Shown here: in pieces, positions 9,706-33,113 of the stretch | Position numbering within the stretch: the stretch's first letter is position 1 | How the letters are laid out: each line of letters starts with the position of its first letter | Assembly (NCBI RefSeq): GCF_000737325.1 | Contig: NZ_CP011125.1 | Location: 2,418,001-2,482,000, forward strand | DNA from: Sandaracinus amylolyticus | Lineage (GTDB): Bacteria; Myxococcota_A; Polyangia; Polyangiales; Sandaracinaceae | Length of the DNA stretch: 64,000 nucleotides | Direction of reading: 5' to 3' | The notes under the pieces: generated by a model | Told to the model about the DNA's origin: nothing | The model's input: the letters and a program-made list of their open reading frames with translations, nothing else | Databases searched by the model: none | Made by a program: the position numbers and the translations under genes

Positions 9706-11315
9706 GGGACGCCCACGCGGAACGTCGCGGTGAACGCCTCGCTCACGGCGTTGCCCGACACGTCGCGCACGCCGCCCGCGGGGATCTCGAGCACGTACTC
9801 GCCCCGCTCGAGCGGGCAGAACGGCGAGAACGTGACGATCGTCTCCTGCGCGCTCACCACGCCCGCGACGCGGCCTTCGTCGGGCGTCGCGCCCGCGCGA
9901 TGCAGGCGCACCGAGCCTTCCCACGCGCTCTGCACGTCGATCATCTCGTCGAACGTGACCGCGAAGCGCGACGTGGGCGGCAGTCCCTCGGCGCCGTCTT
10001 GCGGCCACGCCCAGGTCACGCGCGGAGCGTTCGAGTCGGGCTCGGCGCGCCACGGTGCGATGGCGCTGCCCTGATCGTTCGGATCGACTCCGTCGGGCAG
10101 CGCGTCGACGCTGAGCAGCGCGAGGTTCCCGAGCGGCACGATGGTGTCGAGATCACCGGGCAGGCTCAGCTCGCGCACGACTCGGATGTTCGAGAGATCC
10201 GACACGTCGTAGATGCGCGCGACGCTCGACTCGCCGACGAACGCGTAGTGCTCGTGGAGGAACACGTATCCGCCGTTCCCGCCGCTGCGATACGAGCCTG
10301 CATATCGCGGCTGCGTCGGATCGTGGATGTCCATCACCATCAATCCGCCGCCGTCTTCCTTCTTCGCGTACCAGACGTATCCGCCGGTCGCGGTCGTGAA
10401 GTACGCCTCTCGCGCTCTGCCGTTCTCGTCGAGCGCGTCGAAGTCGCCGCCCGGGATCGGCTGTGGATCTTCGGGATCCGAGATGTCGAGGAGCACGGTG
10501 CGCGGGCCCTCGGCCGCGGTGACGATCAGCAGGTTCCCGATCGCCTGCACGTGTCCGGCGCGCAGCGTCGGCTCGAACGACACCTGTCGCACCAGCACCG
10601 GATTGCGCGGATTCGTCGCGTCGACGACGTACACGCCGTTGTCCGCGCCGGCGACGTACACGTACGGCACCTGCCAGAACACGCTCAGTGTCACGCGTGC
10701 ATACGCGTCGGGATAGAGGAATCCCGGCAGATCGAGGCTCGACACCGCCTCGGGCGCGGTGGGATCCGACACGTCCCAGAACTGCACGCCTCCGGCGTCG
10801 CGCATGAGCGCGCGCCGCAATCCGTCGACCACCGCCCAGCGACCGCCGTGCGACGAGAACCCGATCGAGTGCGACTCGCGCATCTGGCGCGAGCTGCCCG
10901 AGCCGATGCGCGTCGGGGCGCAGGGATCGCTGAGATCGAAGAAGGCCAGTCCGCCGCCGCCGAACTCCGGCGCGATCGGCATGAGCAGATATCCGTCGTA
11001 GATGACGCCGAGGTTGTGGTGATCGGTGACGTCCCACTCGCCGCCGTCGAGGAAGGCGCAGCCGGCTCCGAGCGCGCTCTCCTCGAAGGTCACCGCGGGC
11101 ACTCCCGGACCGCGCGGCGCGGGGAACGCGTCGGGCGCGGGGTAGGGCCCGGGCGCGCCGGCGCTCGGATCGCAGAACGGAGTGCGCATCGGCGGCCCCG
11201 CGTCGCTCCCCGCGTCCTGCGCCTGTGCGCCGGCGTCGGTGCTCGCGGCGTCGTCGTCGCCGCACGCGAGGATCGAGAGCGCACAGAGCGCCACCGCCGC
11301 TGCGTGGTTCCGCAT
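9702..11315 (-). CDS. LVIVD-repeat lipoprotein with C-terminal Ig-like domain
   Basis: A 537-residue lipoprotein (SILAC-G lipobox near residue 18) with a DAGAQAQDAGSDAG linker, as is common in myxobacterial lipoproteins. The body consists of LVIVD-type propeller repeats (GVQFWDVSDPTAPE, NGVYVVDATNPRNPV, LLDISDPEDP, LMVMDIHDPTQPRY, ARIYDVSDLSN). Residues about 435-535 form a Big-5-like Ig domain (SRFAVTFDEMIDVQSA, then VSGNAVSEAFTATF). It is the first gene of a tight minus-strand set with the dihaem and DUF5916 genes. Such propellers are usually surface binding proteins; no enzyme motif is present. Confidence 0.8.
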   Translation of the reverse strand: MRNHAAAVALCALSILACGDDDAASTDAGAQAQDAGSDAGPPMRTPFCDPSAGAPGPYPAPDAFPAPRGPGVPAVTFEESALGAGCAFLDGGEWDVTDHHNLGVIYDGYLLMPIAPEFGGGGLAFFDLSDPCAPTRIGSGSSRQMRESHSIGFSSHGGRWAVVDGLRRALMRDAGGVQFWDVSDPTAPEAVSSLDLPGFLYPDAYARVTLSVFWQVPYVYVAGADNGVYVVDATNPRNPVLVRQVSFEPTLRAGHVQAIGNLLIVTAAEGPRTVLLDISDPEDPQPIPGGDFDALDENGRAREAYFTTATGGYVWYAKKEDGGGLMVMDIHDPTQPRYAGSYRSGGNGGYVFLHEHYAFVGESSVARIYDVSDLSNIRVVRELSLPGDLDTIVPLGNLALLSVDALPDGVDPNDQGSAIAPWRAEPDSNAPRVTWAWPQDGAEGLPPTSRFAVTFDEMIDVQSAWEGSVRLHRAGATPDEGRVAGVVSAQETIVTFSPFCPLERGEYVLEIPAGGVRDVSGNAVSEAFTATFRVGVP

Positions 11316-13788: not shown

Positions 13789-14831
13789 TGATCGCTCGCT
13801 CCGCCCTGTTCACGCTCGCGCTGGTGGTGTCGGCGCTCGCGATGGTTCCACTCGCGTCGGCCCAGTCGACGGAAGGACGTCCGCCCCAGGAGTGCGGGAT
13901 GACCGAGGAGGCCGCGCGCTACGGCGCGCTCGAGCCCGGCACGGTCGTGACCCTGCAGCGCCATCGCTTCGTGTCCGGCGACGACAACTGGGACGATCAG
14001 ATGGCGCGCTGGCTCGGCCGCGCCGCGCGCGTGACGCGCCTGAGCGGCGTCGACGCCGCGGGATGCCCCGGCATCCGCGTCGACGTCGATGGTGGCCAGT
14101 GGTTCTGGCGCGTGCGCGATCTCGGCATCGGCACCGGTCCGCAGCCCCGCGCCGAAGCGCGCGCGCCGAGCGCGACGGGGATCCCGCAGCAGTGCCGACA
14201 GGACGAGATGCGCCCGAATTACGGGCCGATCTCGACGGGCACCGAGGTGGTGCTCGGCCGCCATCGCATGGTCGACGGCGACGACAACTGGGCCGACGAG
14301 ATGCAGCAGTTCGTCGGTCGTCGCGCGCGCGTCGTGGAGCTCTCGGGGATCGACGGAGTCGGCTGCCCGGGCGTGCGGGTCGACATCGACAGCCGGCAGT
14401 GGTTCTGGCGCGTGCGTGATCTGCGCCTCGGGAGCGGTGGTGACGCCGGCGCGGGCGGTGGTGGGCTCGTCGCGAGCACCGGCGTGAGCAGCGATCACGG
14501 TCGTCCGGCGAGCGTCGTCGCGTGGGGCTCGGGCGGCGGTGGGGGCGGAGGTCTCTTCGGCACCGGCGGCAGCGCGACGCCGCAGGAGTGCGGGCTCACC
14601 GACGCGACGGTGCAGTGGGGGCCGATCGCGGTCGGCGCGAGCGTGACGATCGGTCGTCATCGCCCGGTGAACGGCGACGACAACTGGTCGGCGGAGATGG
14701 ATCCGTTCGTCGGTCGTCAGGCGCGCGTGCAGCAGCTGATCGGCGTCGACGATCAGGGCTGTCCGGTGGTGCACATCGATCTCGATCAGGGCCAGTGGTT
14801 CTGGCGCGTCCGCGACCTGACCGTGCCGTGA
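13788..14831 (+). CDS. Secreted protein with three GDDNW...QWFWRVRDL repeats
   Basis: A 347-residue exported protein (signal peptide to about residue 27, ASAQ). It has three copies of a module of about 80 residues (32-114, 132-212, 264-346). Each reads PQxC..., G(T/A)xVxxxRHRxVxGDDNW, EM...VGRxARVxxLxGxDxxGCPxxxxDxDxxQWFWRVRDL. A Gly-rich linker (215-263) separates modules 2 and 3. Each module has two Cys, probably one disulfide, and an invariant Trp-Phe-Trp core suggesting a small beta-barrel ligand domain. I know of no named family; resemblance to SH3/MIB-like barrels is speculative. It is coupled to the upstream lipoprotein gene by a 1-bp stop/start overlap. Confidence 0.7.
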   Translation: MIARSALFTLALVVSALAMVPLASAQSTEGRPPQECGMTEEAARYGALEPGTVVTLQRHRFVSGDDNWDDQMARWLGRAARVTRLSGVDAAGCPGIRVDVDGGQWFWRVRDLGIGTGPQPRAEARAPSATGIPQQCRQDEMRPNYGPISTGTEVVLGRHRMVDGDDNWADEMQQFVGRRARVVELSGIDGVGCPGVRVDIDSRQWFWRVRDLRLGSGGDAGAGGGGLVASTGVSSDHGRPASVVAWGSGGGGGGGLFGTGGSATPQECGLTDATVQWGPIAVGASVTIGRHRPVNGDDNWSAEMDPFVGRQARVQQLIGVDDQGCPVVHIDLDQGQWFWRVRDLTVP

Positions 14832-17859: not shown

Positions 17860-19671
17860 TCAGCGCTGGAGTCGCCGGCGCCGAGCACGGATCACGATCA
17901 TGGCGCCGAGGACGAGCAGGAGCGCATTGCCGCGGATACGCGCACCACCTCCGACCGCGCAGCCCGAGCTGCGCTCGGTCGGCGGCGGCGCGCTCGCGTC
18001 GGCGGGAGCCCCCGCGTCGCGGGGCGCGCTCACGCGGAACGACGCGGTGGCCCAGTCGCTCGTGAACGCGCCGTCGGTCACGCGCACGCGCCAGACGTAG
18101 CTGCCCGGCGCGAGCGCCTCGGGAACGGGCCATGACGTCACGGCGGTGCCGCTCGGGAGATCCGCGACGCGCATGGGCGCGTCGAAGTCCGGCGACGTGT
18201 CGATCTCCAGCTCGTATCGCAGCGTGTCGCCGTCGTCGTCGATCGCGTTCGAGACGACGAGGTCCGGAGTCCGATCCTCGATGCTCGAGCCCGGCACCGG
18301 CGCGATCGGGATCGGCACCGAGGGCGCGCGGTTCGGTCGCACCGCGAGCGCGATCGATGCGTCGGTCGCGCCGCCGTCGTCGTCGATCACGCGCACCGCG
18401 ATGATCAGCTCGCGACCGCCGCGCGTGATCTGCGCCTCGGTCGGGCGCATGCGGACGCGATCGCGCTCGAGGGTCACGCCTTCGGGCGCCGAGACCAGCT
18501 CGAACGAGGTGCGATCGAGCGGCGAGGGATCCTGCGCGCGAAGCACGAGCTCGTGCGCCTCGCCGACGCGGAGCTCGAGGCGCTCGGGCAGATCGACGAA
18601 GGACGGCGCGACGTTCTCGACGCGGATCATCCAGTAGCGCCGGGTGCTCCGTCCGTCCGCGGTCGCTTCCGCACCGACGCGGATCAGGTCGGGACCATCC
18701 AGCGCGTCGGCGGGCACGCTGACCTCGCGCGTCGTGCCCATCGGGACGAGCTCGCCCGTGCCCGTCACGTCCCAGCTCCACGTCACGTCCGCGGGCAGCG
18801 CGGTGGCGCGCACGGGGATCGCCGCGCCCTCCGGCACGATCGTCGCGGCCTCGATCTGCACGCGAGGCGCGCCGGGCACGACCCAGTCGAAGTTGATGAC
18901 GTCGGGGATCAGCTCGTCCATGCCGACCATCACCTCGGGAGGCGGGCCCGACAGGACCTGCAGCGCGAGATCGCGCGCGCCCTCGAGCGTGCGCGACTTC
19001 GTCGCGAAGCGAACGAGCACGACGCGCTCGCCGGGGCCGATGCGCACGGTGCGCGAGATCATTCGCAGGAAGCCCTCGCGCGTGATCACACCGGGCACCG
19101 GCGGCGATGCCGAGCCCCACACGAGCCCGGTCATCTCCTCGATCCACGAGAAGCCGGACACCGACCACGCGTCGTCCGTGTCGACCATCGTGTCGCCGCT
19201 CGACGTCGCGAGCTGGTTCGCGGGAACGACCTCGTCGAGCGTGATCGCGAGGGGCTCGTCGCTGGTGTTCGTGATCACGTCGACGATGCGTGCGATCGAG
19301 GGCCCTTCCTCGGGCACGAACACGCTCCTGCGGATCTGCACGACACCGCTCCGCACGTCGGGCAGATCGATCTGGCGATCGCCGAGCGAGAACGTCGTCG
19401 CGGTGCCGTCCTGCCGGTACCAGAAGCGCGAGCCGTCGGAGCGCACGCCGAGCTCGAGGGTGCGCGTGTCCGAGCCGAACACGGAGAGCAGCGCGCCCGT
19501 GCCCTGGTTCGGATCGTCGCCGTACTCGCCGGGCACGTGATCGACGAAGAAGTAGAAGCCCTCTTCGGTCTGCATCCGATGGCCGGGCTGCGCGGCGGCG
19601 GGCGCGGCCACGCACGTCGCGAGCGTCGCGAGCGCGAGGGCTCGAGCGTGGGATCGAGTCGGCAGTCCCAT
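17860..19671 (-). CDS. MYXO-CTERM surface protein with Ig/cadherin-like domains
   Basis: A 603-residue exported protein, last gene of the six-gene minus-strand operon. It has a signal peptide (APAAAQ), an N-terminal half of unknown fold (about 30-255), and then Ig/cadherin-like beta-sandwich modules (IVPEGAAIPVRATAL; NVAPSFVDLPERLELRVGEAHELVLRA-type; RPNRAPSVPIPIAPVPGSS; DGDTLRYELEIDTS). The end is a MYXO-CTERM tail: SSGCAVGGG, a hydrophobic helix, then RARRRRLQR. That tail is known from myxobacteria as a sorting signal giving surface anchoring after cleavage by a myxosortase and lipid attachment at the Cys. It starts 14 bp after the upstream stop. Confidence 0.85.
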   Translation of the reverse strand: MGLPTRSHARALALATLATCVAAPAAAQPGHRMQTEEGFYFFVDHVPGEYGDDPNQGTGALLSVFGSDTRTLELGVRSDGSRFWYRQDGTATTFSLGDRQIDLPDVRSGVVQIRRSVFVPEEGPSIARIVDVITNTSDEPLAITLDEVVPANQLATSSGDTMVDTDDAWSVSGFSWIEEMTGLVWGSASPPVPGVITREGFLRMISRTVRIGPGERVVLVRFATKSRTLEGARDLALQVLSGPPPEVMVGMDELIPDVINFDWVVPGAPRVQIEAATIVPEGAAIPVRATALPADVTWSWDVTGTGELVPMGTTREVSVPADALDGPDLIRVGAEATADGRSTRRYWMIRVENVAPSFVDLPERLELRVGEAHELVLRAQDPSPLDRTSFELVSAPEGVTLERDRVRMRPTEAQITRGGRELIIAVRVIDDDGGATDASIALAVRPNRAPSVPIPIAPVPGSSIEDRTPDLVVSNAIDDDGDTLRYELEIDTSPDFDAPMRVADLPSGTAVTSWPVPEALAPGSYVWRVRVTDGAFTSDWATASFRVSAPRDAGAPADASAPPPTERSSGCAVGGGARIRGNALLLVLGAMIVIRARRRRLQR

Positions 19672-19685
19672 CGTGGCTCTCTCCG

Positions 19686-21884
19686 TCAGATCGGATCGAC
19701 GAACACGTCGAGCCGGAAGTCGGTCTCTTGATAGCCCTGCACCGCGAGGAAGTACGTGCCCGGCGGGAGCACGCGATCGAGCGCGCGCGGCACGCAGTCG
19801 GTGATCGCCGTGGCGCAGTCGCTCTCGAGCAGCCCCATCGTCACGGGGTTGAACGGGTCGAGCGACTCGACCAGCGCGGTCACCGCGCTCTCGCGATCGA
19901 GCGTGAGCCGGTAGAGCGCGTCCCTGCCGGCCCAGCACGCCTCGACGTCGTCGGCGAAGCCGTAGAGCGTGTCCATGCGCGATGCGCCGTCGCCGATCTC
20001 GAGCGCGTCCTGGCACCGATCGTTCTCGGGCCGCGGGGTCGGCGGCAGGAGCGTCGCGCGCGCGTGGATCGGCTGGTGGTACCCGCCGGCGCGGGCGATC
20101 ACGAAGTAGTCGCCGGGCGGGACGCTGCGGAGGAGCGGCGGCCCGTAGGCGCGCGGCGTCTCGAGGCAGAGGAGCTCGGAAGCGACGCTCCCGCAGTCGG
20201 CCTGCACGAAGAGGTGCGCGTTGTCGCCGATCCAGTCGACGTCGAGCATCACGTCCGACGTGGTCTCGACCTCGAAGCGGAAGACCGCGTCGGGGTAGAA
20301 GAGGGTGCCGACGCCACCGCAATTCGAGAGGTAATCCGGCTCGAACCGCGTGCCGTGCGAGCCCGAGCCGACGAGGCGTCGCGGCTCCAGCGTGGCCGTG
20401 CGATTCGTGATGTCGACGGCGGTGCCGCACGCGTCGCCCTCGAGCCGCGGGACCGGCTCGGTGATCGTCGCGCGCAGCTCGTACGTCGGGTAGCTCTGCC
20501 GCCGCTCGATGACGACGAAGTAGTCGCCCGCGGCGAGCGGCGCGTAGCGGAGCCGCGAGACGCCCTGGTCCTCGAAGAGCGGATCCTGCTGCGCGTCGGG
20601 CATCGCGCAGCCGAGCGACGTGCTCGCGTCGTCGCAGGTGCGTCGCACCTCGAGCGTCACGCCGCGGTACACGATCGGCGTCATCCCGAGGCTCGCCTCG
20701 AGCACCACGTCCATCGGTCGATCGAGGTGGAGTCGATGCACGACCTCGGGGAGCGCGCCCGCCTCGCCGCACGTGGTCGTGAGGTCGTCGTCGTAGAGCG
20801 CGAAGTCACCGGCGATCACGGTGGAGGCCGTGATGTCGACGAGCTCGGCGTCGCAACGATCCCCGCGGACCGGCGTGCCGGGCGCGGTGATCGAGAGCTC
20901 CACGCCGAACGCGACGGGCACCCCGGTGGCGACGCGGATGACGTACTCGCCCGCGGCGAGCGCGGGCTCGTCGACGACGATCGCACCGGCTCCGCCGTTG
21001 TTCGCGCAGCGGACGTCGCGCGCGGGATCGGGGTCGGCGCAGTCGGTGCGGAGGCGCAGGGAGACGGTCGCGTCGACCGGCGTCCAGACCGCGACGCGGA
21101 CGCGTCGCGGCGCGTCGATGCGGAACGCGTAGAACGCGTCGGTGCCCAGCTCCGAGCAGCTCGACGTGCCGTCCGCGGCGAGGCCGGCCGTGGTCCCGGA
21201 GTACGAGCCGGAGCCCGGCAGGGCGCGCGCGGTCGCGCAGGTGTCGTTCGTCGCGACGCAGCTCGCCTGCGCGTAGTCGCGCAGACCGTCGCAGTCGTCG
21301 TCGATGAAGTTGTCGCAGATCTCCTCGCGCGCGGGGCCGATCGAGTCGAGCGCGTCGTTGCAGTCGTCGCCGCCGCAGCGCGCGTCGACCGCGCCGTCCG
21401 CGTCGGCGTCGCGCAGCACGGTGGTCGAGCCGCAGCCCGTCGCGGGATCGCACGTGTCGACCGTGCACGGATCTCCGTCGCTGCAGTCGAGCAGCGCGGG
21501 CGCCGGGAGACAGCCGAGATCGGCGGAGCAGACCTCGCGGCCGTTGCAGGCGTCGTCGTCCTGGCAGCGCTCGGCGTCGGGCCCGAACACGCAGCTGCGC
21601 GCGGCCTCGACGCACACGTCGTCGGTGCACTCGTGCGCGTCGACGCACGGCGCGGTGCCCGCCTCGCAGCGACCCTCGACGCACGCCTCCTCGCCGTTGC
21701 AGAAGCAGCCGTCGCTGCACTCCGCGGCGATCGTGCACGCGGCGCCGACCGTCGCGCCGGGCGCGTCGCACGTCGCGGGCGGAGGCGCGTCGGGCAGCGC
21801 GCCCGCGTCGGCGAGCGGAGCGGGACCGGGCTCGCCGCACGCGGCGAGGATCAGAGCGATCGAGATCGACCAGCGCTTCGTCAT
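19686..21884 (-). CDS. Cys-rich MopE-like lipoprotein with PPC-like repeats (copy 1)
   Basis: A 732-residue lipoprotein (ILAAC-G lipobox). Residues about 38-165 form a Cys-rich region with CFCNGEEACVEGRCEAG and CSDGDPCTVDTCDPATG motifs, then a MopE-like putative metal-binding motif (GGDDCNDALDSIG... EICDNFIDDDCDG). The remaining 520 residues are about five repeats of a PPC-like beta-sandwich module, each ending in LAAGEYVIRVA / VPPGDYFVIARA-type strands. It is clearly a paralogue of the next gene upstream and overlaps its stop by 4 bp (ATGA). The Asp-rich motif suggests calcium or copper binding; function unknown. Confidence 0.8.
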   Translation of the reverse strand: MTKRWSISIALILAACGEPGPAPLADAGALPDAPPPATCDAPGATVGAACTIAAECSDGCFCNGEEACVEGRCEAGTAPCVDAHECTDDVCVEAARSCVFGPDAERCQDDDACNGREVCSADLGCLPAPALLDCSDGDPCTVDTCDPATGCGSTTVLRDADADGAVDARCGGDDCNDALDSIGPAREEICDNFIDDDCDGLRDYAQASCVATNDTCATARALPGSGSYSGTTAGLAADGTSSCSELGTDAFYAFRIDAPRRVRVAVWTPVDATVSLRLRTDCADPDPARDVRCANNGGAGAIVVDEPALAAGEYVIRVATGVPVAFGVELSITAPGTPVRGDRCDAELVDITASTVIAGDFALYDDDLTTTCGEAGALPEVVHRLHLDRPMDVVLEASLGMTPIVYRGVTLEVRRTCDDASTSLGCAMPDAQQDPLFEDQGVSRLRYAPLAAGDYFVVIERRQSYPTYELRATITEPVPRLEGDACGTAVDITNRTATLEPRRLVGSGSHGTRFEPDYLSNCGGVGTLFYPDAVFRFEVETTSDVMLDVDWIGDNAHLFVQADCGSVASELLCLETPRAYGPPLLRSVPPGDYFVIARAGGYHQPIHARATLLPPTPRPENDRCQDALEIGDGASRMDTLYGFADDVEACWAGRDALYRLTLDRESAVTALVESLDPFNPVTMGLLESDCATAITDCVPRALDRVLPPGTYFLAVQGYQETDFRLDVFVDPI

Positions 21885-24037
21885 CGCGGCTCCGTCGTCT
21901 GCACGCGCAGTCGCGCGGCCGGGATCGCAGCGGGGTCGCCCTCGAGCATCACGAGGTGCTCGCCCGCCTCGAGCGTCTCCTCGAACACGATCGTGCCGTC
22001 CGCCTGCGCCTCGGCCGTGCGGCAGGTGGGCGTGATGTCGTCGCAACGATCGAGGACGCCGAGGGTGATCGGGCCCGCGCCCTCTTCGGGCGTCACGAAG
22101 AAGAGCACGCGGCGGCGCGCGCTCAGCGCGAGCCGATAGAACGCGTCGGCGTCGGGGCGCTCGTGGCCGCAGCGTCGGTCGTCGCGATATGCGGTGAGCT
22201 CGACGCGCGCGGCCCTGCCCGGCTCGAGCGCTACGGCGCCGGCGCAGACGTCGTTCGCGCGCGCGCTCGCGGGCGCTTCGGTGTCGAGCCTGACCTCGAC
22301 GGGCCCGGTGTTCTCCATGCACGAGATCGCCGCGAAGTGCTCGCCCGCGGGCACCGACGGCACGCGCAGCACGCCCGTCCTGCGGCATGCGAGCGCGCCG
22401 CGCGTGCTGCAGTCGTCGGTGATCGTCACGGCGCAGGGCGGACCCCAGCTGCTGCTCGCGCCGACGATCACGTCGCGCGCCTCCGCGAGCGTGAAGCGGA
22501 CGAAGAGATCGTCGGCGGGACGGATCGTCGGGTCCTCGCACGCCGCGCCGAGCTCGTAGCCGAAGGGGAGCGGATCGATCGTCGTGGGCACGCCCTCCGC
22601 GAGCTCGACCGCGCGGGCGCAGACGTCGCCGTCGTGCGCCTCGCCGGAGACGGGCTCGATCGTGACGTCGACGTCCAGCGAGACCGCCGTGGGATCGGTG
22701 CGCGCGTCCTCGACGACGATCCAGTGCTCGCCCGCCGGCAGCGCGCGCAGCGTGAGCGCGCCCGCGCCGCACCCGCGCACGTCGTCGTCGCGACCTTCGT
22801 CGCCGCACACCGAGGTCACCGCGACGCGCGCGTTCTCGCCCTCGATGTGCACGTCGCGCGGCGCATCGAGCACCAGCCGGTACACGGCATCCACGCCGCC
22901 GCGATCGCCGAAGCGGCAGTGGTCGGCGATGTCGGCGCGCAGATCGAGCAGCGGCAACGAGTACGTGCCCGACGCGGTGATCGTGCGCGGGGCCTCGCAG
23001 CCGTCGCCCTCGATCGCATCGACGGGCGCCTCGATCTCGACCGAGAGCTCGAACGGGCCGCGTCCCGCGACCGACGTGACCACGAGCGCGTAGTCACCCG
23101 CCGCGAGGCGCCGCGCCCGGAGCACGGTCGGCGCGTCCGGCGCGCGACACGCGAGCGGCGCGCCCTCGGGCATCGCGCACTGGTCCCAGGGACGCAGCGC
23201 GAGCGCGACCGCCGTCGTCAGCGGGTCGTCGGGCGTGACGCTCGCGGCGCTCACGGACAGATCGCGCTCGGCCGGGAGGCGCACGCGGTAGACCACGTCG
23301 CCGGGCTCGTTCCCGCCGACGACGCACGGCGAGGGCACGTCGAGCGCCGCGCCGAGCGTCGTGCCGAGCAGCGTCGTCGACGCGCTGATCACGCGCGCGT
23401 CGTCGCAGCCGTCGTTCGTCGCGGGGCACGACTCGAGCGCGTCGGAGCTGCCGTTGCAGTCGTCGTCGAGCTCGTTGCCGCACACCTCGGGCGCGCCGGG
23501 ATGGCGGCTCGCTCCGGTGCTCGGCGCGTCGTCGCAGTCGGTGCCGCCGCACAGCTGGTCGACGAAGCCGTCGTCGTCGCGATCGGCGAGCTCGTGCTCG
23601 CACTCGCCCTCACCGGTGCACGAGTCGACGGTGCAGTCGTCGCCGTCGTCGCAGGGATCGGGGCCGGGCACGCAGCCGCGCGTCAGCTCGCAGATCTCGA
23701 TGCCGTTACAGGGATCGCCGTCGTCGCACTCGATGTCGGCGGCGGTCGCGGCGCACGCGTCGGTCGCCGGGTCGCAGGCGTCCAGCGTGCACGCGACACC
23801 GTCGTCGCACGCCGCGCGCTCGCCCGCGCTGCACACGCCCTCGACGCAGCGCTCGACGCCGTTGCAGAAGCAGCCGTCGTCGCAGGGCGCGTCCTCGGAG
23901 CAGAGCTGGCCGAGGGTGAGCCCGGGCGCGACGCACGCGCGCTGACCGCCGTCGTCCATCGTCGCCGGAGGATCGCCGTCGCCGCACGCGAGGCTGCACG
24001 CGATCGCGAGCGCGCCGATCAGCTTCGTCGTCCTCAT
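21881..24037 (-). CDS. Cys-rich MopE-like lipoprotein with PPC-like repeats (copy 2)
   Basis: A 718-residue paralogue of the downstream gene with the same order of parts: lipobox (CSLAC-G), Cys-rich repeats (GCFCNGVERCVEGVCSAG, CDDGVACTLDACDPATDAC, CDDGDDCTVDSC), MopE motif (CGGTDCDDAPSTG... VCGNELDDDCNG), then PPC-like modules with LPAGEHWIVVED / VPAGEHFAAISC strands. The ATG at 24037 was chosen because AGGAG sits 8 bp upstream; it shares one base with the preceding TGA. Tandem duplication inside one operon suggests two related binding subunits. Confidence 0.8.
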   Translation of the reverse strand: MRTTKLIGALAIACSLACGDGDPPATMDDGGQRACVAPGLTLGQLCSEDAPCDDGCFCNGVERCVEGVCSAGERAACDDGVACTLDACDPATDACAATAADIECDDGDPCNGIEICELTRGCVPGPDPCDDGDDCTVDSCTGEGECEHELADRDDDGFVDQLCGGTDCDDAPSTGASRHPGAPEVCGNELDDDCNGSSDALESCPATNDGCDDARVISASTTLLGTTLGAALDVPSPCVVGGNEPGDVVYRVRLPAERDLSVSAASVTPDDPLTTAVALALRPWDQCAMPEGAPLACRAPDAPTVLRARRLAAGDYALVVTSVAGRGPFELSVEIEAPVDAIEGDGCEAPRTITASGTYSLPLLDLRADIADHCRFGDRGGVDAVYRLVLDAPRDVHIEGENARVAVTSVCGDEGRDDDVRGCGAGALTLRALPAGEHWIVVEDARTDPTAVSLDVDVTIEPVSGEAHDGDVCARAVELAEGVPTTIDPLPFGYELGAACEDPTIRPADDLFVRFTLAEARDVIVGASSSWGPPCAVTITDDCSTRGALACRRTGVLRVPSVPAGEHFAAISCMENTGPVEVRLDTEAPASARANDVCAGAVALEPGRAARVELTAYRDDRRCGHERPDADAFYRLALSARRRVLFFVTPEEGAGPITLGVLDRCDDITPTCRTAEAQADGTIVFEETLEAGEHLVMLEGDPAAIPAARLRVQTTEPR

Positions 24038-25122
24038 CACCACCGCTCCTGCGCGCATCCGAACGAGCCGATCAGCGCCGCTTCACCGCGCCGCACGCGC
24101 TCGCAGCGCGTGGCGTCCGTGAGCACCACGTGCGCTCCGTCGTCACCCAGCCGCGCGTGGCCGCCGGGACGGCCCGGCGTGACGATGCGGAGGCGCTCGA
24201 TCGAGCCGTCGTCGCGGCGCAGCCCGAGGTTGATCAGCTCGAGATCGCGCGCGCTCGGTGGGCTCGTCCACGGGAGATCGAACGAGCACGACTCGCCGAG
24301 CAAGCGCTCGGCCTCGTCGAGCCCCGCGCGCACGAACAGGAACTGGCAGCAGGCTTCGATCGGCGTGTCCCAGCGGCAGGTCGCTGCGCATCCTTCGAAG
24401 CTCGGCGCGCCGCCGTTCGCCGCGAGCACCGAGAGGTCGCCGCGATCGCCGCCGAGCGAGATCGTCACCGTCGGTTGCTGCTGTTGCGTCGCGCGCTCGC
24501 GCACCAGGCGCACCAGGCGATCGGGCACGCCGGGCCCGTCGGGATGGCACGTGTCGAGGCCGTCGGTGAGGAGCACGATGCCGCGCGGCTCCGCGGACGG
24601 CAGTCGATCGAGCAGCGCGAAGCCCGACTCCACCGCGGCGGTGAGCGGCGTCTCGCTGCTGAACGGCAGCTCACCCAGCGCGCCGACGAGCTGCGCGCGC
24701 TGCTCGGCGGAGAGCGGCGCGATCGCGACCGTCGGCTCGAGCGGTGTCGCGCATCCGGTCGTGTGCTCCGGGAAGCGAACGAGCCCGACCTCGAGCTCGG
24801 CGGGCGCGTCCTCGATCCACGACGCGATGCCTTCCTGCAGCTCCTCCCAGCGCGTCGCCTCGCGACCGTCGAGCTGCATGCTCACCGACTGATCGACGAG
24901 CAGCAGCAGCGAGCCCACGGTGCTCTCCAGCGGCGAGACCCACGCGGCGCACGACGAGCTCGGATCGAACGGATCTTCGGGACCGGCGTCGCGCGCGTCG
25001 CCCGCATCCGGTCGCGCGGGCACGTCGGGCGGAGGCCCGCCGTCGGTCTCGGGAGGCGTGCGTCCGGTGCACGCGATCATCGCCGCGAGCGCGGCGATCG
25101 GGATGGCGAGTCGGGCGCTCAT
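24037..25122 (-). CDS. VWA-domain lipoprotein
   Basis: A 361-residue lipoprotein (MIAC-T lipobox) with a Pro/Asp linker and a von Willebrand factor A domain at about 70-240. The metal-ion-dependent adhesion site is visible: DQSVS in LLLLVDQSVSMQLDG, the Thr in SSETPLTAAVE, and the Asp in VLLTDGLDTC. A C-terminal region of about 100 residues has several Cys (CAATCRWDTPIEACCQFLF). VWA domains bind protein ligands through a divalent metal, fitting a surface adhesion or assembly role. Overlaps on both sides (ATGA and TGATG) tie it to its neighbours. Confidence 0.85.
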   Translation of the reverse strand: MSARLAIPIAALAAMIACTGRTPPETDGGPPPDVPARPDAGDARDAGPEDPFDPSSSCAAWVSPLESTVGSLLLLVDQSVSMQLDGREATRWEELQEGIASWIEDAPAELEVGLVRFPEHTTGCATPLEPTVAIAPLSAEQRAQLVGALGELPFSSETPLTAAVESGFALLDRLPSAEPRGIVLLTDGLDTCHPDGPGVPDRLVRLVRERATQQQQPTVTISLGGDRGDLSVLAANGGAPSFEGCAATCRWDTPIEACCQFLFVRAGLDEAERLLGESCSFDLPWTSPPSARDLELINLGLRRDDGSIERLRIVTPGRPGGHARLGDDGAHVVLTDATRCERVRRGEAALIGSFGCAQERW

Positions 25123-26939
25123 TCGAGATCCACCGTCTCCAGGTCGAGGCCAGCCGGGTACGCGTACGACGTGTAGCGAGCGAGCCCGAACACGAGCGCG
25201 CCGATGCGCGCTTCGGGATCGGCCGCGACGAGCGTGTGGATGCCGCCGGAGATCGGGAACGTCGCGACCTGCTCGTCGCCGATGCTGCGGAACGGCACCT
25301 CGAGCGGCGCGCCGTCGAGCAGGATGCCGACGTCGCGTGCGCGCACGACGGTGAGATAGCTCTGCCCGTCGAGCGTCGAGCGGTACGTCTCGGGCGCGAC
25401 GAACGTGTAGTCGGCGCGGTACTGCTCGCGCGGCACCAGCATCGTGAGCGCGGGATCGCCGACCGGCGTCTCGGGCTCGGCGTAGCCCGCGCCGAGCGTG
25501 AGCACCGAGACCTGCACCGGATGCGTCGCCTCGATCGAGAAGGGACCTCGCACGACGAGATCGCGGTGCTCGCGGCTCGGCAGCGCGAACGTCGCGCCGT
25601 CGACCGGCGGAGGGTCGAACGTGATCTCGGTGTCGTGCGCGCTCGCGACGATGCGCACGAGGTTCGCGGTGTCGACGCCCGGCTGCACGAGCGCGCTCGC
25701 GCGGAACGAGCGACCCCACGCGCGCACGGGAGCGAGCTGCTCCTCGACGTGATCGCAGGCAGGCGCGTAGAACGGCGCGTACAGGCAGGGGTGCGTGGCG
25801 AAGACGGCGAGGGGGCCGTCGGCCTCGATGCTCGAGCCGGTGAGGTCGTGCGCGGGGTCGTCGCACGCGATCGCGTTCGAGCCGAGCACCGAGCGCGCGC
25901 CGTCGCGCCCCGCGCCGCACGGAGGCGGCCGCTTCGCGAACACCTGCACGACCTCGCCGCGCGCGAGCTCGAGCTCGAGCACGTCGCCGACGGTCAGCGC
26001 GGGCCAGCGCCCCGAGCGCTCGGCCTCGATCGGCGCGCGCAGGTGCATGCGCACCCGCACCGGGTCCGGGCTCACGCCCACGAGCGCGATCGCGCCCGTC
26101 CACTGCACCACGCCCGCGAGCGGATCGAGCACGTTGAACGGCGCGAACGAGAGCCCGACGTAGCGGCCCGCGAGCGCGTGCACCGGCAGGAGCAGCGACG
26201 CGTCGTTCGAGTGGCTGAACGTCGTGCCCGCCGAGGTCGCGTACTCGTAGGGATTGAACTGCGTCACCACGACCGGCCGATCCGCGATGACGCGGTACGC
26301 CGCGTCCGGGCTCGCGATGCTCTCGGCCTGCTCGCCGACCCACGCCGACTCGGTCCACGGAAGCGTGACGACCTCGAGGTCTCCCGCCGCCACGTCGAGC
26401 GAGCGCACGTCGTCGCCGCCGCGCTGGATGCGCACGTGGGCGGGCGCCGCGCCGGGGTTCGCGATCGAGATACGGAAGGTGAACGTCGACAGATCGAGGA
26501 GGTGGTTGCCGAGCGGGGCCGCGAAGTACTCGCAGCCGATGTACCCGTTGCGACGCTCGGCGATCGCGCACTCGTCGCCGCAGTCGCCGTTGCCGCTGCA
26601 GACCGAGCCCCAGTCGGCGCAGTCGCGCACGTGCGTGTAGCCGCTCCCGTCGGGCAGACACACCTCGGAGCGATTGCCGTCGCAGCGCCGCTGGCCCGGC
26701 ACGCACGCGACGCAGCCGAGCGACGCGCTGCACGCTTCGTCGCAGTGCGTCTCGTCCTCGCGCGTCCGACCGTCCGCGCCGCAGCGGTAGTGGACGAGGC
26801 CCTCGCATCGCAGCGTGTCGGGCTCGCCGCAGATGGACTCGGGCGCGTCGCCGGCGCCGGCATCGCGCCCCGGCGGGCGCGGCTCGTCGCTGCACCCGAC
26901 GAGCGCGATCGCGAGCGCGAGCACGCACACGCGGATCAT
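25119..26939 (-). CDS. IgGFc-binding-like N-terminal domain lipoprotein
   Basis: A 606-residue lipoprotein (LVGC-S lipobox). Residues 35-125 are Cys-rich (LRCEGLVHYRCGADGRT, GQRRCDGNRSEVCLPDGSGY). The main body (130-606) resembles the IgGFc-binding protein N-terminal family seen in many myxobacterial and Bacteroidota surface proteins: NPGAAPAHVRI, RPVVVTQFNPYEYATSAG, FSHSNDASLLLPVHAL, VFATHPCLYAPFYAPACDHVEEQL. The domain is associated with protein or mucin binding in animals; in bacteria its role is unknown. The start overlaps the previous stop (ATGA). Confidence 0.8.
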   Translation of the reverse strand: MIRVCVLALAIALVGCSDEPRPPGRDAGAGDAPESICGEPDTLRCEGLVHYRCGADGRTREDETHCDEACSASLGCVACVPGQRRCDGNRSEVCLPDGSGYTHVRDCADWGSVCSGNGDCGDECAIAERRNGYIGCEYFAAPLGNHLLDLSTFTFRISIANPGAAPAHVRIQRGGDDVRSLDVAAGDLEVVTLPWTESAWVGEQAESIASPDAAYRVIADRPVVVTQFNPYEYATSAGTTFSHSNDASLLLPVHALAGRYVGLSFAPFNVLDPLAGVVQWTGAIALVGVSPDPVRVRMHLRAPIEAERSGRWPALTVGDVLELELARGEVVQVFAKRPPPCGAGRDGARSVLGSNAIACDDPAHDLTGSSIEADGPLAVFATHPCLYAPFYAPACDHVEEQLAPVRAWGRSFRASALVQPGVDTANLVRIVASAHDTEITFDPPPVDGATFALPSREHRDLVVRGPFSIEATHPVQVSVLTLGAGYAEPETPVGDPALTMLVPREQYRADYTFVAPETYRSTLDGQSYLTVVRARDVGILLDGAPLEVPFRSIGDEQVATFPISGGIHTLVAADPEARIGALVFGLARYTSYAYPAGLDLETVDLE

Positions 26940-28837
26940 CGCGGCACCTCGCAGCCCGCGCGGTACGCGAGGCGCACCGAGAGCACGCGCGGGAGCGCGC
27001 GCGCCGTGCCGTCGAGCGCGAGCTCGAGCTCCACGATCTGCGCCGGGTCCTCGCCGCGGAACGCGAGCACGTCCCCGACGTCGATCGGCGGCGCGTCGGG
27101 CGCGATCGTCGCGACGGTCAGCCATCGCGCCGCGGCGAGCGCGCTCTGCGACGCGGCGGTGCGCACGCGCACCGTCATCGACGCGTCCACCGGGATGCCC
27201 GCCTCCCACGTCAGGCGGCCGAGCTCCGGCGTGATCGTCGCGACGCCTCCGTCGCACGTGTCGAGCCGGTAGCGATAGAGACCGCGCGCGCGCGGCGCCG
27301 CGCCGAGCCGCGTCGTCATGTCGGTCCACGCGTCGGGCCGGCGCAGGATCGGCACCACGCCCGACCACACGGTGTTGTCGTCGAGCGCCTCGCCGGGCGC
27401 GATCACCGTCGCGTCGCCGGTCGCGGCGTTGATCACCCACACCTTCCCCTCGTCGTCGACCGAGAGGCCCTGCGGCTCCGCTCCGCCTGCGTAGGGCCAC
27501 GGCGTGACGCCGACCGTCTCACCGGTCGCGGGGTCGACGCGCACGACGCCGACGCCGTTGATCGCCGCGTCCGCGACGAACACGTTGCCGCGCGCGTCCG
27601 CGACCAGGTTGCGCACGTAGGACGACTCGCCGTTCGGCTCGCCGAGCCGTCGGCCGAGCGGTGCGCGCGGATCCCAGATCGTGTGATACGGACAGCCGAG
27701 GTGCAGCAGGCCGTCGGGCCCGAGCGCGATCGCGCTGCACGCCGGGATGTCGAGGACCTGCCGCACGCAGTCGTCGCCCGATGGCCCACAGGCCGCGGCG
27801 GCGCAGCTCGGCTCGTCCACGCAGCGCGTGGTGTCGATCCGCGCGTAGAACCCGCGCGCGATGCCCGTGTGGTGCGGCGCGGAGAAGAGCTGTCCGCGCG
27901 CGTCGATCGCGAAGACCGTCGCGGGCTGGTGCTCCGGGGTCGAGAAGCGGAAGAGCTCTTCGCCGGTGTCGCCGTCGAGCTGGTAGACGAGCTCGGTGTC
28001 GACGCCCCCGACCCACACGCGCGGCGCGTACCCGCCGAGGATCGCCTCGTCGCGCACCGCGATCGCCGTCGGCCGCGCATCCGGCATCGGGTGGTTCCAG
28101 AGCACGCACTCGTCCTCGCCCCACGGGAGCACGTCGTCGGGGCCGCTCGACGTCCGCACCGTTCCGTCACCGTCGCGATCCGGGCAGAGCGCAGGACGCG
28201 CCGCGATGCGCGTGACGCTCTCGCCGTGGACGTTCGTCACGTAGACGTCGCCGCGCACGTCGACCGCGGTGCGCGAGGGCTCGTCGAGCAGCGCGTTCGG
28301 GCCCGTGCGATAGCGCGCGAGCGGCTCGAACGTCTGCACGTCGACCTTCACGATCGTCCCGTCGCCGGTGCTCGGGATCCAGATGAGGTGCTCGGCCGCG
28401 GGCTCGGGCGCCTCCATCGAGAGCACGCCGTCTTCACCGACCGAGACGCCGTCGAGCTGCGCGGCGGGCGCGTCGAACGGCGAGCCGCCCGCGCCGAGGC
28501 GCAGCTCGGTGCAGCCCGGCATGCACGAGCCGCAGGCCGTGATGATCAAGCCGTCGTCGGCGTCGCCGTCGCAGTCGTTGTCGCGTCCGTCGCACACCTC
28601 CAGGCCGGTCTGCATCGGATCGCCGTCGTCGCAGTCGGGCCCCATCGAGCAGCCCTCGCCTCGACCGTCGGCGTCGTCGTCGACGCACGGGATCGGCGAG
28701 CAGAGCCCGGCGCGACAGCTCCCACCGGGACAGTCGCGATCCACGCGGCACGGCACGAGCTCTTCGCGATCGTCCTCGACCGTGCACGCGATGCTCGCGA
28801 GGAGCAGCGCCGCCACGAACGTGCTTCGTCGTCGCAT
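26936..28837 (-). CDS. NHL/SMP-30-like propeller lipoprotein with MopE motif
   Basis: A 633-residue lipoprotein (ASIAC-T lipobox). Residues 30-95 contain Cys-rich and MopE-like putative metal-binding sequence (DDDADGRGEGCSMGPDCDD, then GLEVCDGRDNDCDGDADDG). The body is an NHL/virginiamycin-B-lyase-like beta-propeller (WIPSTGDGTIVKVDVQT, PSRTAVDVRGDVYVTNVHG, GEPNGESSYVRNLVADARG, GLSVDDEGKVWVINAATG). It is the first long gene of the operon; GGAG lies 6 bp before the ATG. A small ORF ends on its start codon. Probably a surface binding protein rather than a lyase, as no catalytic His pair is apparent. Confidence 0.8.
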   Translation of the reverse strand: MRRRSTFVAALLLASIACTVEDDREELVPCRVDRDCPGGSCRAGLCSPIPCVDDDADGRGEGCSMGPDCDDGDPMQTGLEVCDGRDNDCDGDADDGLIITACGSCMPGCTELRLGAGGSPFDAPAAQLDGVSVGEDGVLSMEAPEPAAEHLIWIPSTGDGTIVKVDVQTFEPLARYRTGPNALLDEPSRTAVDVRGDVYVTNVHGESVTRIAARPALCPDRDGDGTVRTSSGPDDVLPWGEDECVLWNHPMPDARPTAIAVRDEAILGGYAPRVWVGGVDTELVYQLDGDTGEELFRFSTPEHQPATVFAIDARGQLFSAPHHTGIARGFYARIDTTRCVDEPSCAAAACGPSGDDCVRQVLDIPACSAIALGPDGLLHLGCPYHTIWDPRAPLGRRLGEPNGESSYVRNLVADARGNVFVADAAINGVGVVRVDPATGETVGVTPWPYAGGAEPQGLSVDDEGKVWVINAATGDATVIAPGEALDDNTVWSGVVPILRRPDAWTDMTTRLGAAPRARGLYRYRLDTCDGGVATITPELGRLTWEAGIPVDASMTVRVRTAASQSALAAARWLTVATIAPDAPPIDVGDVLAFRGEDPAQIVELELALDGTARALPRVLSVRLAYRAGCEVPR

Positions 28838-29112: not shown

Positions 29113-30090
29113 TCAGGGCGCGTCGCCGAACAGCGCGTGCAGCTCGACCGAGACGAGCACCAGTCGATCGGCGGTCGGCAGCGGCGTCGAGAGCTCCATC
29201 AGCATCTGCTGGATCGCGCGTCGGTGCTCCTGCAGCCGCTCGTAGCGCTCGCGATCGACCTGCAGCACGACGATCGGTCCTTCGAAGCCCGGACGCAGCG
29301 CGCGCGACCGCGCCATCTCGCGGAACGCGACGCCGAATCGTTTCGTGCGTCGCGCCGACACGACGCGCGGCCCGTCGTCGGGGATCAGCGCCCAGCCCTG
29401 ACGCGTCTTGCGCGCGATCCCGAGCGTCGCGCACAGCTCGAGCGCCGCGAGCACGCGCGCTTCGGGCACGTCGAGCCCTCGCGCGAGCTCCGCGACCGGA
29501 TCCTTCGCGCGCTGCACCGAGCGCACCGAGAGCGCGGGGATCAGCACCGCGAGGAGCGGCTCGGACTCGAACGCGTCCTCGATGCTGCGGCGCTTCCGCG
29601 GTCCTTCGGGGAGCGGCAGCGTCGACGCGTCGATCCCGAGCGCGTCGATGACGAGATCGGGCAGCGCGCCGCACGCGTCGACCAGCGCGAGGAACTCGTG
29701 GAAGCGCGGCTCCGAGAGCCCGCGCAGCCAGCGCCCGAGCGTCGCCCGCGTGACGCCGATCGCGCTCGCGAGGCGCGTGACCGCGTGGCCCGACGTGATC
29801 GCGCGGAGGTACGACGCGACTCCGTCGACGTCGGCGAGCGTGCGCACGTCGGCGAACGCGACCGGCAGCCGCACGGGCTCCTTCTCCCATCGCGGCGCGG
29901 CCCGCAGCGCGGCGAGGCGCACGACCTCCGTCGTGACCGGGCTGCGCCGTCCGCGCTCCCAGTCGTACAGCACGTTCGTCTCGTACCCGAGCTTCTCGCT
30001 CGCGACGCGCTGCGAGCGTTTGCCTCGGAGCGCTCGGACGGTCGCGCGCGTGACTCGCTTCCACGCCGTCTCGGCGGAACTGCTCGCCAT
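29113..30090 (-). CDS. TIGR02147/DUF4423-like transcriptional regulator
   Basis: A 325-residue DNA-binding protein. The N-terminal 60 residues form an XRE-like HTH (SQRVASEKLGYETNVLYDWE), and a second HTH-like segment lies near 105-130 (TRLASAIGVTRATLGRWLRG). The C-terminal half (PVAELARGLDVPEARVLAALELCATLGI, then FREMARSRAL and YERLQEHRRAIQQMLMELS) resembles the TIGR02147/DUF4423 family found mainly in myxobacteria, bdellovibrios and fibrobacters. It lies directly upstream of the surface-protein operon on the same strand and may control it or be co-transcribed with it. Confidence 0.7.
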   Translation of the reverse strand: MASSSAETAWKRVTRATVRALRGKRSQRVASEKLGYETNVLYDWERGRRSPVTTEVVRLAALRAAPRWEKEPVRLPVAFADVRTLADVDGVASYLRAITSGHAVTRLASAIGVTRATLGRWLRGLSEPRFHEFLALVDACGALPDLVIDALGIDASTLPLPEGPRKRRSIEDAFESEPLLAVLIPALSVRSVQRAKDPVAELARGLDVPEARVLAALELCATLGIARKTRQGWALIPDDGPRVVSARRTKRFGVAFREMARSRALRPGFEGPIVVLQVDRERYERLQEHRRAIQQMLMELSTPLPTADRLVLVSVELHALFGDAP

Positions 30091-31578: not shown

Positions 31579-33018
31579 TCACTCGAAGCACGTGCCGCCA
31601 TCGGGCGCGAGCGAGTCGGGACACGCGACGCGGTAGTCGGCTCCTGGCGGCGACACGATCTCGAGCTCGATCGCGCTCGCTTCCGGCGGACAGAACGCGT
31701 CGACGAGCGCCCACCCCGGCGCTCCCGAGCCGTACGAAACCCGCGCGAGCTGGCAGACCTGCCGCCCATCTTCGATGGTGCGTCGGGTCCGCCCCGGCAG
31801 CGCATCGCACGTCATGCCCTCGGGGAGCACTTCCTCGACGACGCAACCCGCGATGATGGCACGGCTGCACCTCGCGCCGAGGATGCGGTCACCCAGCGCG
31901 TCACCCAAGGCGTCGAACGAGGGCTCGAGATCGGGCGCGCAGATCGATCGCAGGAACGTCGGCACGCGCGCGTCGTCGAGCGCGTCGAGCGCTTCCACGA
32001 TCCGCCGCGGAGGCAACGCGGTGATGCCGGAGCCACTGCACGACGGCAGGACGCGCGAGGGCTGCGTCGGATCCGCGACGAGCTGCATGCGCTCGTGCGC
32101 GAGGACGGCGTCGTAGCCTCCGCCGCCGTCGGGCTCCAGCGCGTCGAGCGGTGCGCCCACCAGCGCGGCGACGAAGACGTCGTCGGGGCTCCAGCGCAGT
32201 CCGAGGAGGCCGGTCTCGCCGTGCTCGCCTTCGACGTAGCGCGCGATCGAGTAGAGCGCGTCGCGATGATCGCGGCAGCGCGTCTCGAGCGGCTCACCGT
32301 CGTACGCCGCAGGGTCGAACAGCGAGACGTCTTCGACCGAGCAGTCGTCCTCGTCGGTGACGATCACCACCGCGAGGACCGGGGGATACGTGAACGGCTC
32401 GTACTCGGCGAAGCCGTGGCCGGTGCCTTCGCGGAACAGCGGCGGAACGCGCGGATGGACGAGGTCGGCCGCGTCGGGCGTCGGCGCGAGCGCCTTGAGC
32501 GCGGCCTCGAGCGGCTGCTCCCAGCCGCAGCCAGACGTGCCCACGCGCGCTGCACATCGGACGGCGTCGACGAACGCATCGGCGTCGTCGCCCGGCTCGA
32601 ACGTGATCACGGGCGAGCTCCCGCCGCACGAAGGATCGCCCGGTCGCGGCGCACCGTCGTCGCCCGAGGCTCCGAAGCGCCCGTCGGTGCACGAGGGCAC
32701 GTCGTGCCCCGCGGCGCCGAGATGGCTCGTCACGACCGCGACGCGCAGCGGGAGGGCGGGCACGTCTCTGCGCTCGTCGCCGTCGCGATCGCCCGTAGCG
32801 AGCGAGCGTGTCAGGCGCGCGATCGCGCCGTTCACCTCGTCGATGCGGCCGAGGCTCGAGTCGTCGAGCACGACCAGCAGGTCGACGCTCTCGGGACGTC
32901 CTTCGAGCGTCATGCGGAGCGGTCGATCCGTGTGCAGACAAGGAGTCGGTGGCGTGGCGTCGACTGGAGTGCACGCGAGGGCGAGCGAGGACGCGATCGC
33001 GGGGAGGATTCGGCGCAT
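31579..33018 (-). CDS. Cys-rich lipoprotein with VWA-like fold
   Basis: A 479-residue lipoprotein (LALAC-T lipobox). The N-terminal half looks like a degenerate VWA domain: VDLLVVLDDSSLGRIDEVNGA with a DDSS in place of DxSxS, and VLAVVIVTDEDDCS. This layout recurs in myxobacterial lipoproteins with HGFAEYEPFTYPPVLAVV-type sequence. Scattered Cys pairs suggest disulfides. The ATG at 33018 has GGAG 8 bp upstream; a TTG at 33036 is less likely. It is divergent from the ECF41 cluster. Function unknown. Confidence 0.65.
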   Translation of the reverse strand: MRRILPAIASSLALACTPVDATPPTPCLHTDRPLRMTLEGRPESVDLLVVLDDSSLGRIDEVNGAIARLTRSLATGDRDGDERRDVPALPLRVAVVTSHLGAAGHDVPSCTDGRFGASGDDGAPRPGDPSCGGSSPVITFEPGDDADAFVDAVRCAARVGTSGCGWEQPLEAALKALAPTPDAADLVHPRVPPLFREGTGHGFAEYEPFTYPPVLAVVIVTDEDDCSVEDVSLFDPAAYDGEPLETRCRDHRDALYSIARYVEGEHGETGLLGLRWSPDDVFVAALVGAPLDALEPDGGGGYDAVLAHERMQLVADPTQPSRVLPSCSGSGITALPPRRIVEALDALDDARVPTFLRSICAPDLEPSFDALGDALGDRILGARCSRAIIAGCVVEEVLPEGMTCDALPGRTRRTIEDGRQVCQLARVSYGSGAPGWALVDAFCPPEASAIELEIVSPPGADYRVACPDSLAPDGGTCFE

Positions 33019-33113
33019 TCGTGCGACTCCGAGCAAGCGACGCGCCGCGTGCGGATCTCACGGACGTCTCGCGACTCGTCGGCTCTTCGCGCCAACCGTG
33101 TTGGCGACTCGCC

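Follow-up and report, generated by a model that had tools for sequence, protein, structure and literature searches.

The window, as we call here the whole stretch of 64,000 nucleotides of DNA from the soil bacterium Sandaracinus amylolyticus that was analysed, belongs to a genome assembled as a single contig of 10,327,335 bp; the published genome of the species is described as one contig of 10.33 Mb with 72% GC (PMC5010890). On the minus strand, between positions 28837 and 17860, six genes are packed head to tail, all of them with ATG starts on re-translation. The features considered in this work, in the order in which they would be transcribed, are the following:

29113-30090, minus strand: double-HTH regulator upstream of the operon (HTH_31 and HTH_3, E about 1e-11).
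29019-28837, minus strand: relic, 60 codons long, of a seventh gene heading the operon, recognised by its start and end, which match an intact gene of a congener (G002).
28837-26936, minus strand: PROP, 633-aa putative beta-propeller lipoprotein with a Cys/Asp-rich N-terminus (sub-threshold NHL and SGL matches).
26939-25119, minus strand: IGFC, 606-aa lipoprotein of the IgGFc-binding family (PF17517).
25122-24037, minus strand: VWA, 361-aa lipoprotein with a VWA domain (VWA_2 above cut-off) and a DxSxS motif.
24037-21881, minus strand: MOP2, 718-aa Cys-rich (44 Cys) lipoprotein of a MopE/PPC-like paralogue family, assigned by homology to MOP1 and other family members.
21884-19686, minus strand: MOP1, 732-aa Cys-rich (41 Cys) lipoprotein with a PPC domain and a sub-threshold MopE motif (Pfam).
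19671-17860, minus strand: CTERM, exported protein of 603 aa containing Ig-like repeats; its C-terminal tail is MYXO-CTERM-like (sub-threshold TIGR03901 match).

The initial annotation had described these genes as a six-gene coupled operon, and this description was borne out. In the gene order PROP-IGFC-VWA-MOP2-MOP1 the junctions are overlaps of 4, 4, 1 and 4 bp, MOP1 and CTERM are separated by a gap of 14 bp, and both order and junctions are kept in the congener. Overlaps of 1 or 4 bp were observed in 17/106 same-strand neighbour pairs (16%) from sampled loci of the same genome, with starts taken from a simple gene caller; given this background, the presence of such overlaps at four of the five junctions is unlikely to be due to chance (about 0.003 in a simple binomial calculation). 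No enzyme domain was found among the six operon proteins in the Pfam profile search, in agreement with the earlier statement that none of them is an enzyme. Judged from the sequence, the six genes are one true coupled operon, the products of which are predicted to be exported, probably surface-anchored and non-enzymatic.

The whole gene order was kept only in G002 among the 56 relatives that were searched gene by gene. In this congener the operon lies at G002:C1:5096400-5107378, with 85-93% identity to the genes of the window (93% for PROP and 89% for VWA). The dN/dS values between both species were 0.22-0.34 for all six operon genes, compared with about 0.07 for the flanking genes, and the GC3 of the six genes is 0.90-0.95. 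Taken together, the codon usage and the dN/dS values indicate that all six genes encode real, selected proteins. By this measure, the operon genes are constrained, yet faster evolving than their neighbours. The gene for the HTH regulator is syntenic and 96% identical in G002, and possibly controls the operon. We also considered this regulator as a general marker of such operons and discarded it, since its homologues and paralogues sit in mixed contexts.

The operon of G002 is headed by a gene for a 245-aa Cys-rich lipoprotein (L116:5663-6400), which overlaps PROP as TGATG. The segment 29019-28837 of the window matches this head gene in its start (MRFEHA) and in its end (CVxLxPGQxxCAGAEWSG); the TGATG overlap with the start of PROP is kept, and the signal peptide and about 185 codons are missing. 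The simplest reading of this comparison would be an in-frame internal deletion in the lineage of the window, the operon having once contained at least seven genes. The decay of the head gene in the window species implies that this species can do without the complete set. This relic had been overlooked in the initial annotation.

Just three domain assignments in the operon cleared the Pfam cut-offs: IgGFc_binding in IGFC (PF17517, 176.5 bits with a cut-off of 25.6, E 9.5e-52, residues 246-585), VWA_2 in VWA (30.9 bits with a cut-off of 27) and PPC in MOP1 (PF04151, 28.2 bits with a cut-off of 25.9). The MopE profile (PF11617, cut-off 27) scored below threshold in MOP1 (22.8) and in PROP (15.6), as did the propeller profiles in PROP (NHL, 18.8 with a cut-off of 20; SGL, 17.5 with a cut-off of 26.3), and in MOP2, where no Pfam domain exceeded its cut-off, neither PPC nor MopE was matched. 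The domain labels assigned before thus stand for IgGFc, VWA and the PPC of MOP1, whereas "MopE" and "NHL propeller" are, on these scores, sub-threshold labels. The lipoboxes attributed to five of the proteins could be recognised in all of them, clearly so in four (LVGC, MIAC, SLAC/AIAC and LAAC) and weakly in PROP (SIAC). At the C-terminus of CTERM, SSGC is followed by a TM helix and RARRRR, and this stretch (SSGCAVGG...ALLLVLGAMIVIRARRRR) presents the Cys motif, TM helix and Arg cluster pattern of MYXO-CTERM. CTERM is the same as MYXO-CTERM surface proteins such as TraA in these three elements and in the signal peptide, and differs from them in the score: the match to TIGR03901, although nearly full-length to the model, reached 17.4 bits with a cut-off of 20. 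The myxosortase tail proposed for the last gene is therefore present as a pattern, but falls below the threshold of the profile. Relatives of CTERM carry similar C-terminal tails. In VWA, the metal-site motif DxSxS is found as VDQSVSM (D77-S81) and is kept in G002; two of three more distant VWA homologues have DRSGS, and the third gave no clear answer to a simple motif search. On the basis of this motif, the VWA protein carries a credible ligand-binding module, with putative metal-dependent binding.

IGFC is a clear member of the bacterial IgGFc_binding family by sequence, and the Cys pattern of its N-terminus is common to 15 and to 55 aligned relatives. IGFC has a Cys-rich N-terminus, a putative ASRT-like sandwich at residues 132-256 and PF17517 at residues 246-585, and its fold was predicted with high confidence (pLDDT 91.4, from 55 aligned sequences). 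When residues 132-256 (window about 26546-26172, minus strand) were compared with known structures, the best matches were TM1070 (1nc7; Z 10.5, with an rmsd of 3.6 for 103 residues) and, second, the rhodopsin transducer of Anabaena (2ii8; Z 8.2); next came an N-terminal part of a GH32 enzyme (Z 7.8). The IgGFc part of the model gave weak structural matches only, a Foldseek search with the whole model gave no convincing full-length match, and the IGFC profile retrieved nothing useful from the PDB sequences, with no match to the TM1070/ASRT entries. From the model, IGFC appears to contain a sandwich domain similar to that of the ASRT/TM1070 superfamily. Sugar binding has been proposed for this superfamily (ASRAH), one of the cases being a lipoprotein of the cell surface (PMC2739507); sugar binding by the ASRT-like domain of IGFC is a lead given by the predicted fold, and not a proof. 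The initial annotation had considered all the domains to be binding modules, and for at least two members, VWA with its DxSxS and IGFC with its ASRT-like sandwich, this is credible. The model of CTERM, obtained from one sequence, had a pLDDT of 36 and was set aside. An ASRT/TM1070-like sandwich might also hold across the bacterial IgGFc_binding family.

The gene order, proposed before as something to be looked for in other Polyangiales, is not conserved in them: outside the near relative G002 the genes were found scattered, an outcome which the initial annotation had named as one that would refute its proposal. Close homologues of the operon VWA are present in 2/183 genomes of the order, the two that carry the operon; the other VWA homologues have at most 41% identity along some 240 residues, and the loci of those that were inspected have other surroundings. 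A third genome of the same genus (G001, a MAG, 96% complete) is without the VWA, the HTH regulator and the set. VWA-MOP-CTERM neighbours are absent from all 80 named IgGFc loci of GTDB genomes, and most of the IgGFc genes stand alone, unlike the operon-borne IGFC. The argG gene, which flanks the locus, occurs in relatives, but there the neighbourhoods differ and do not contain the operon. From these comparisons, the operon appears to be Sandaracinus-specific and young, apparently put together from gene families that as a rule are not neighbours. In the part of the literature covered by our search, we found no description of a system with this composition.

Other runs of lipoprotein genes, of different make-up, are present in the same genome (L105, L113 and L114). 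L105 contains propeller-type, PD40 and IgGFc genes in two rounds, while L113 and L114 contain Big_5, MopE/PPC-type and TSP3/VWA genes and have counterparts in G002, G043 and G053. Operons of the latter type, from the same genus and order, likewise encode several lipoproteins and have a MopE/PPC-type gene next to one for a VWA lipoprotein; they differ from the operon of the window in being without IgGFc, propeller and CTERM and in the family of their VWA. We observed that this type recurs at L113, L114, L118, L246 and L265-L267. An adjacent same-strand VWA-type gene was found for 8/58 MopE/PPC-type genes and for 4/211 control genes, a difference that is suggestive only, because the cases are not independent. 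Tandem MopE/PPC pairs, which occur in eight other genomes, were rejected as an orthologous unit: in the tree, each of the two genes of the window has a long branch of its own, and neither falls within the "first" clade or clusters with the "second" genes. According to this tree, the common tandem pair found elsewhere is a lineage separate from the window pair. The pairing of IgGFc and propeller genes (L104, L105, L109, L094 and L145) was likewise discarded as a general rule, since few of the 80 loci show it. Finally, both Sandaracinus genomes contain an ORF in which a CTERM-related MYXO-CTERM Ig protein is fused to a VWA lipoprotein:

L115:8467-11589 (G000:C1 about 6223466-6226588): fused ORF, conserved in both genomes.
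L244:7019-10135 (G002): its counterpart.

The MYXO-CTERM tail of this ORF (GCAVDxGATRG..TM..RRARR) runs directly into a second TM segment, at the end of which there is a lipobox (LAVGCTDG), and on into a TSP3/VWA lipoprotein. The ORF has the appearance of a natural fusion, which myxosortase and signal peptidase II could both cleave, and the joining of a CTERM-type protein to a VWA protein hints at a partnership between such proteins.

The explanation that we favour, with reserve, is that the operon co-produces binding proteins of the outer membrane, facing outwards, which would together help the cells to adhere to prey, polysaccharide, matrix or surfaces; here we infer surface exposure, the type of ligand and adhesion. 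The co-expressed set is probably glycan- or contact-binding. The proteins would be exported by Sec, lipidated and displayed on the outer membrane, five of them (once six) through the lipoprotein pathway, and myxosortase would cleave CTERM and give it a lipid anchor. The VWA protein may hold its ligand through a bound metal ion, IGFC would bind its own, most likely a glycan, with its two sandwich domains (ASRT-like and IgGFc), and PROP and the Cys/Asp-rich PPC-type proteins may be rigid spacers or stalks, stabilised by disulphides and Ca, or offer further binding faces. In Myxococcus, proteins are targeted to the cell surface by MYXO-CTERM, and the myxosortase route is known for TraA (PMC11980579). 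Furthermore, a lipobox MIDAS protein acts in the contact between predator and prey in Bdellovibrio (PMC11003981), and by analogy adhesion would be a reasonable guess here. The overlaps, the order kept in G002, the selection on all six genes, the lipoboxes, the MYXO-CTERM-like tail, the DxSxS of VWA and the fold of IGFC support this explanation, as do the VWA/MYXO-CTERM Ig fusion and the MopE/PPC-type genes adjoining VWA lipoproteins in other loci. It is weakened by the presence of the operon in two genomes only, by the decayed head gene and by the fact that the families are mostly alone elsewhere.

It should be noted that co-transcription does not prove shared function. One multi-subunit complex formed by the six proteins is possible; its more specific version, a hetero-oligomeric adhesion apparatus in which the metal-site VWA, the ASRT-like/IgGFc lectin-type lipoprotein, the propeller and the two Cys-rich stalks are arranged on the outer membrane around the myxosortase-anchored Ig protein, seems to us unlikely. 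A simpler alternative, less probable than the explanation favoured above and still a serious competitor, is a co-regulated bundle of independent surface lipoproteins, the genes of which share a promoter because the same conditions call for them, with each protein working alone and no complex. That relatives have stand-alone homologues of each family, that differently composed runs of lipoprotein genes exist in the genome and that the head gene was lost while the rest was retained all speak for such a bundle; the tight overlaps, however, suggest coupled translation, and some pairings recur, as that of MopE/PPC-type genes beside VWA lipoproteins. The narrow distribution, the relic and the higher dN/dS compared with the flanking genes could also point to a drifting, recently assembled array with little collective function and on its way to decay, but all six frames are intact, purifying selection acts between the two species and the junctions are preserved, so that we regard this as improbable. 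Very doubtful is a set that captures polysaccharides or nutrients in a SUS-like role, as opposed to an adhesion device; the sugar binding suggested by the ASRT-like domain and the degradation of starch by S. amylolyticus (PMC5010890) would favour it, but no transporter, TonB-dependent receptor or glycoside hydrolase was found in the operon (Pfam) or seen in the flanking ORFs.

If the proteins of the operon work together, they would represent a compact kit for surface binding in a myxobacterium other than the model Myxococcus, and a role would be suggested for the bacterial IgGFc_binding family, with glycan binding by the ASRT-like domain. Mainly, the operon illustrates how lineage-specific lipoprotein operons are assembled from a shared pool of binding modules. 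CglB, the VWA lipoprotein of Myxococcus gliding, is likewise a VWA lipoprotein in a gliding myxobacterium; the window VWA is a weak match to its profile (NF033757, 16.9 bits with a cut-off of 200) and was rejected as CglB, and other loci of the Sandaracinus genomes give higher CglB-like scores, which are also sub-threshold. The lipobox MIDAS adhesins Bd0875 and Bd1483 of Bdellovibrio are likewise VWA lipoproteins with DxSxS, to which the window VWA may be compared by analogy, a predatory lifestyle being a further common point; they were studied as single proteins (PMC11003981), unlike the operon-borne VWA of the window.

Other ORFs of the window are worth recording. At 31579-33036 (minus strand), adjoining argG also in G002, there is a gene for a 485-aa lipoprotein with no Pfam family above cut-off, which has a VWA-like start (VLDDSSLGR) with an incomplete metal motif. 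The lipoprotein-like ORF at 7489-10053 (minus strand) contains two CxxCH haem motifs (CAHCH and CADCH) and is cytochrome-peroxidase-like by eye, and the ORF at about 13800-14831 (plus strand) contains three similar repeats of about 60 aa (RH..DGDDNW...GR.ARV..L.G.D..GCP...D...WFWRVRDL).
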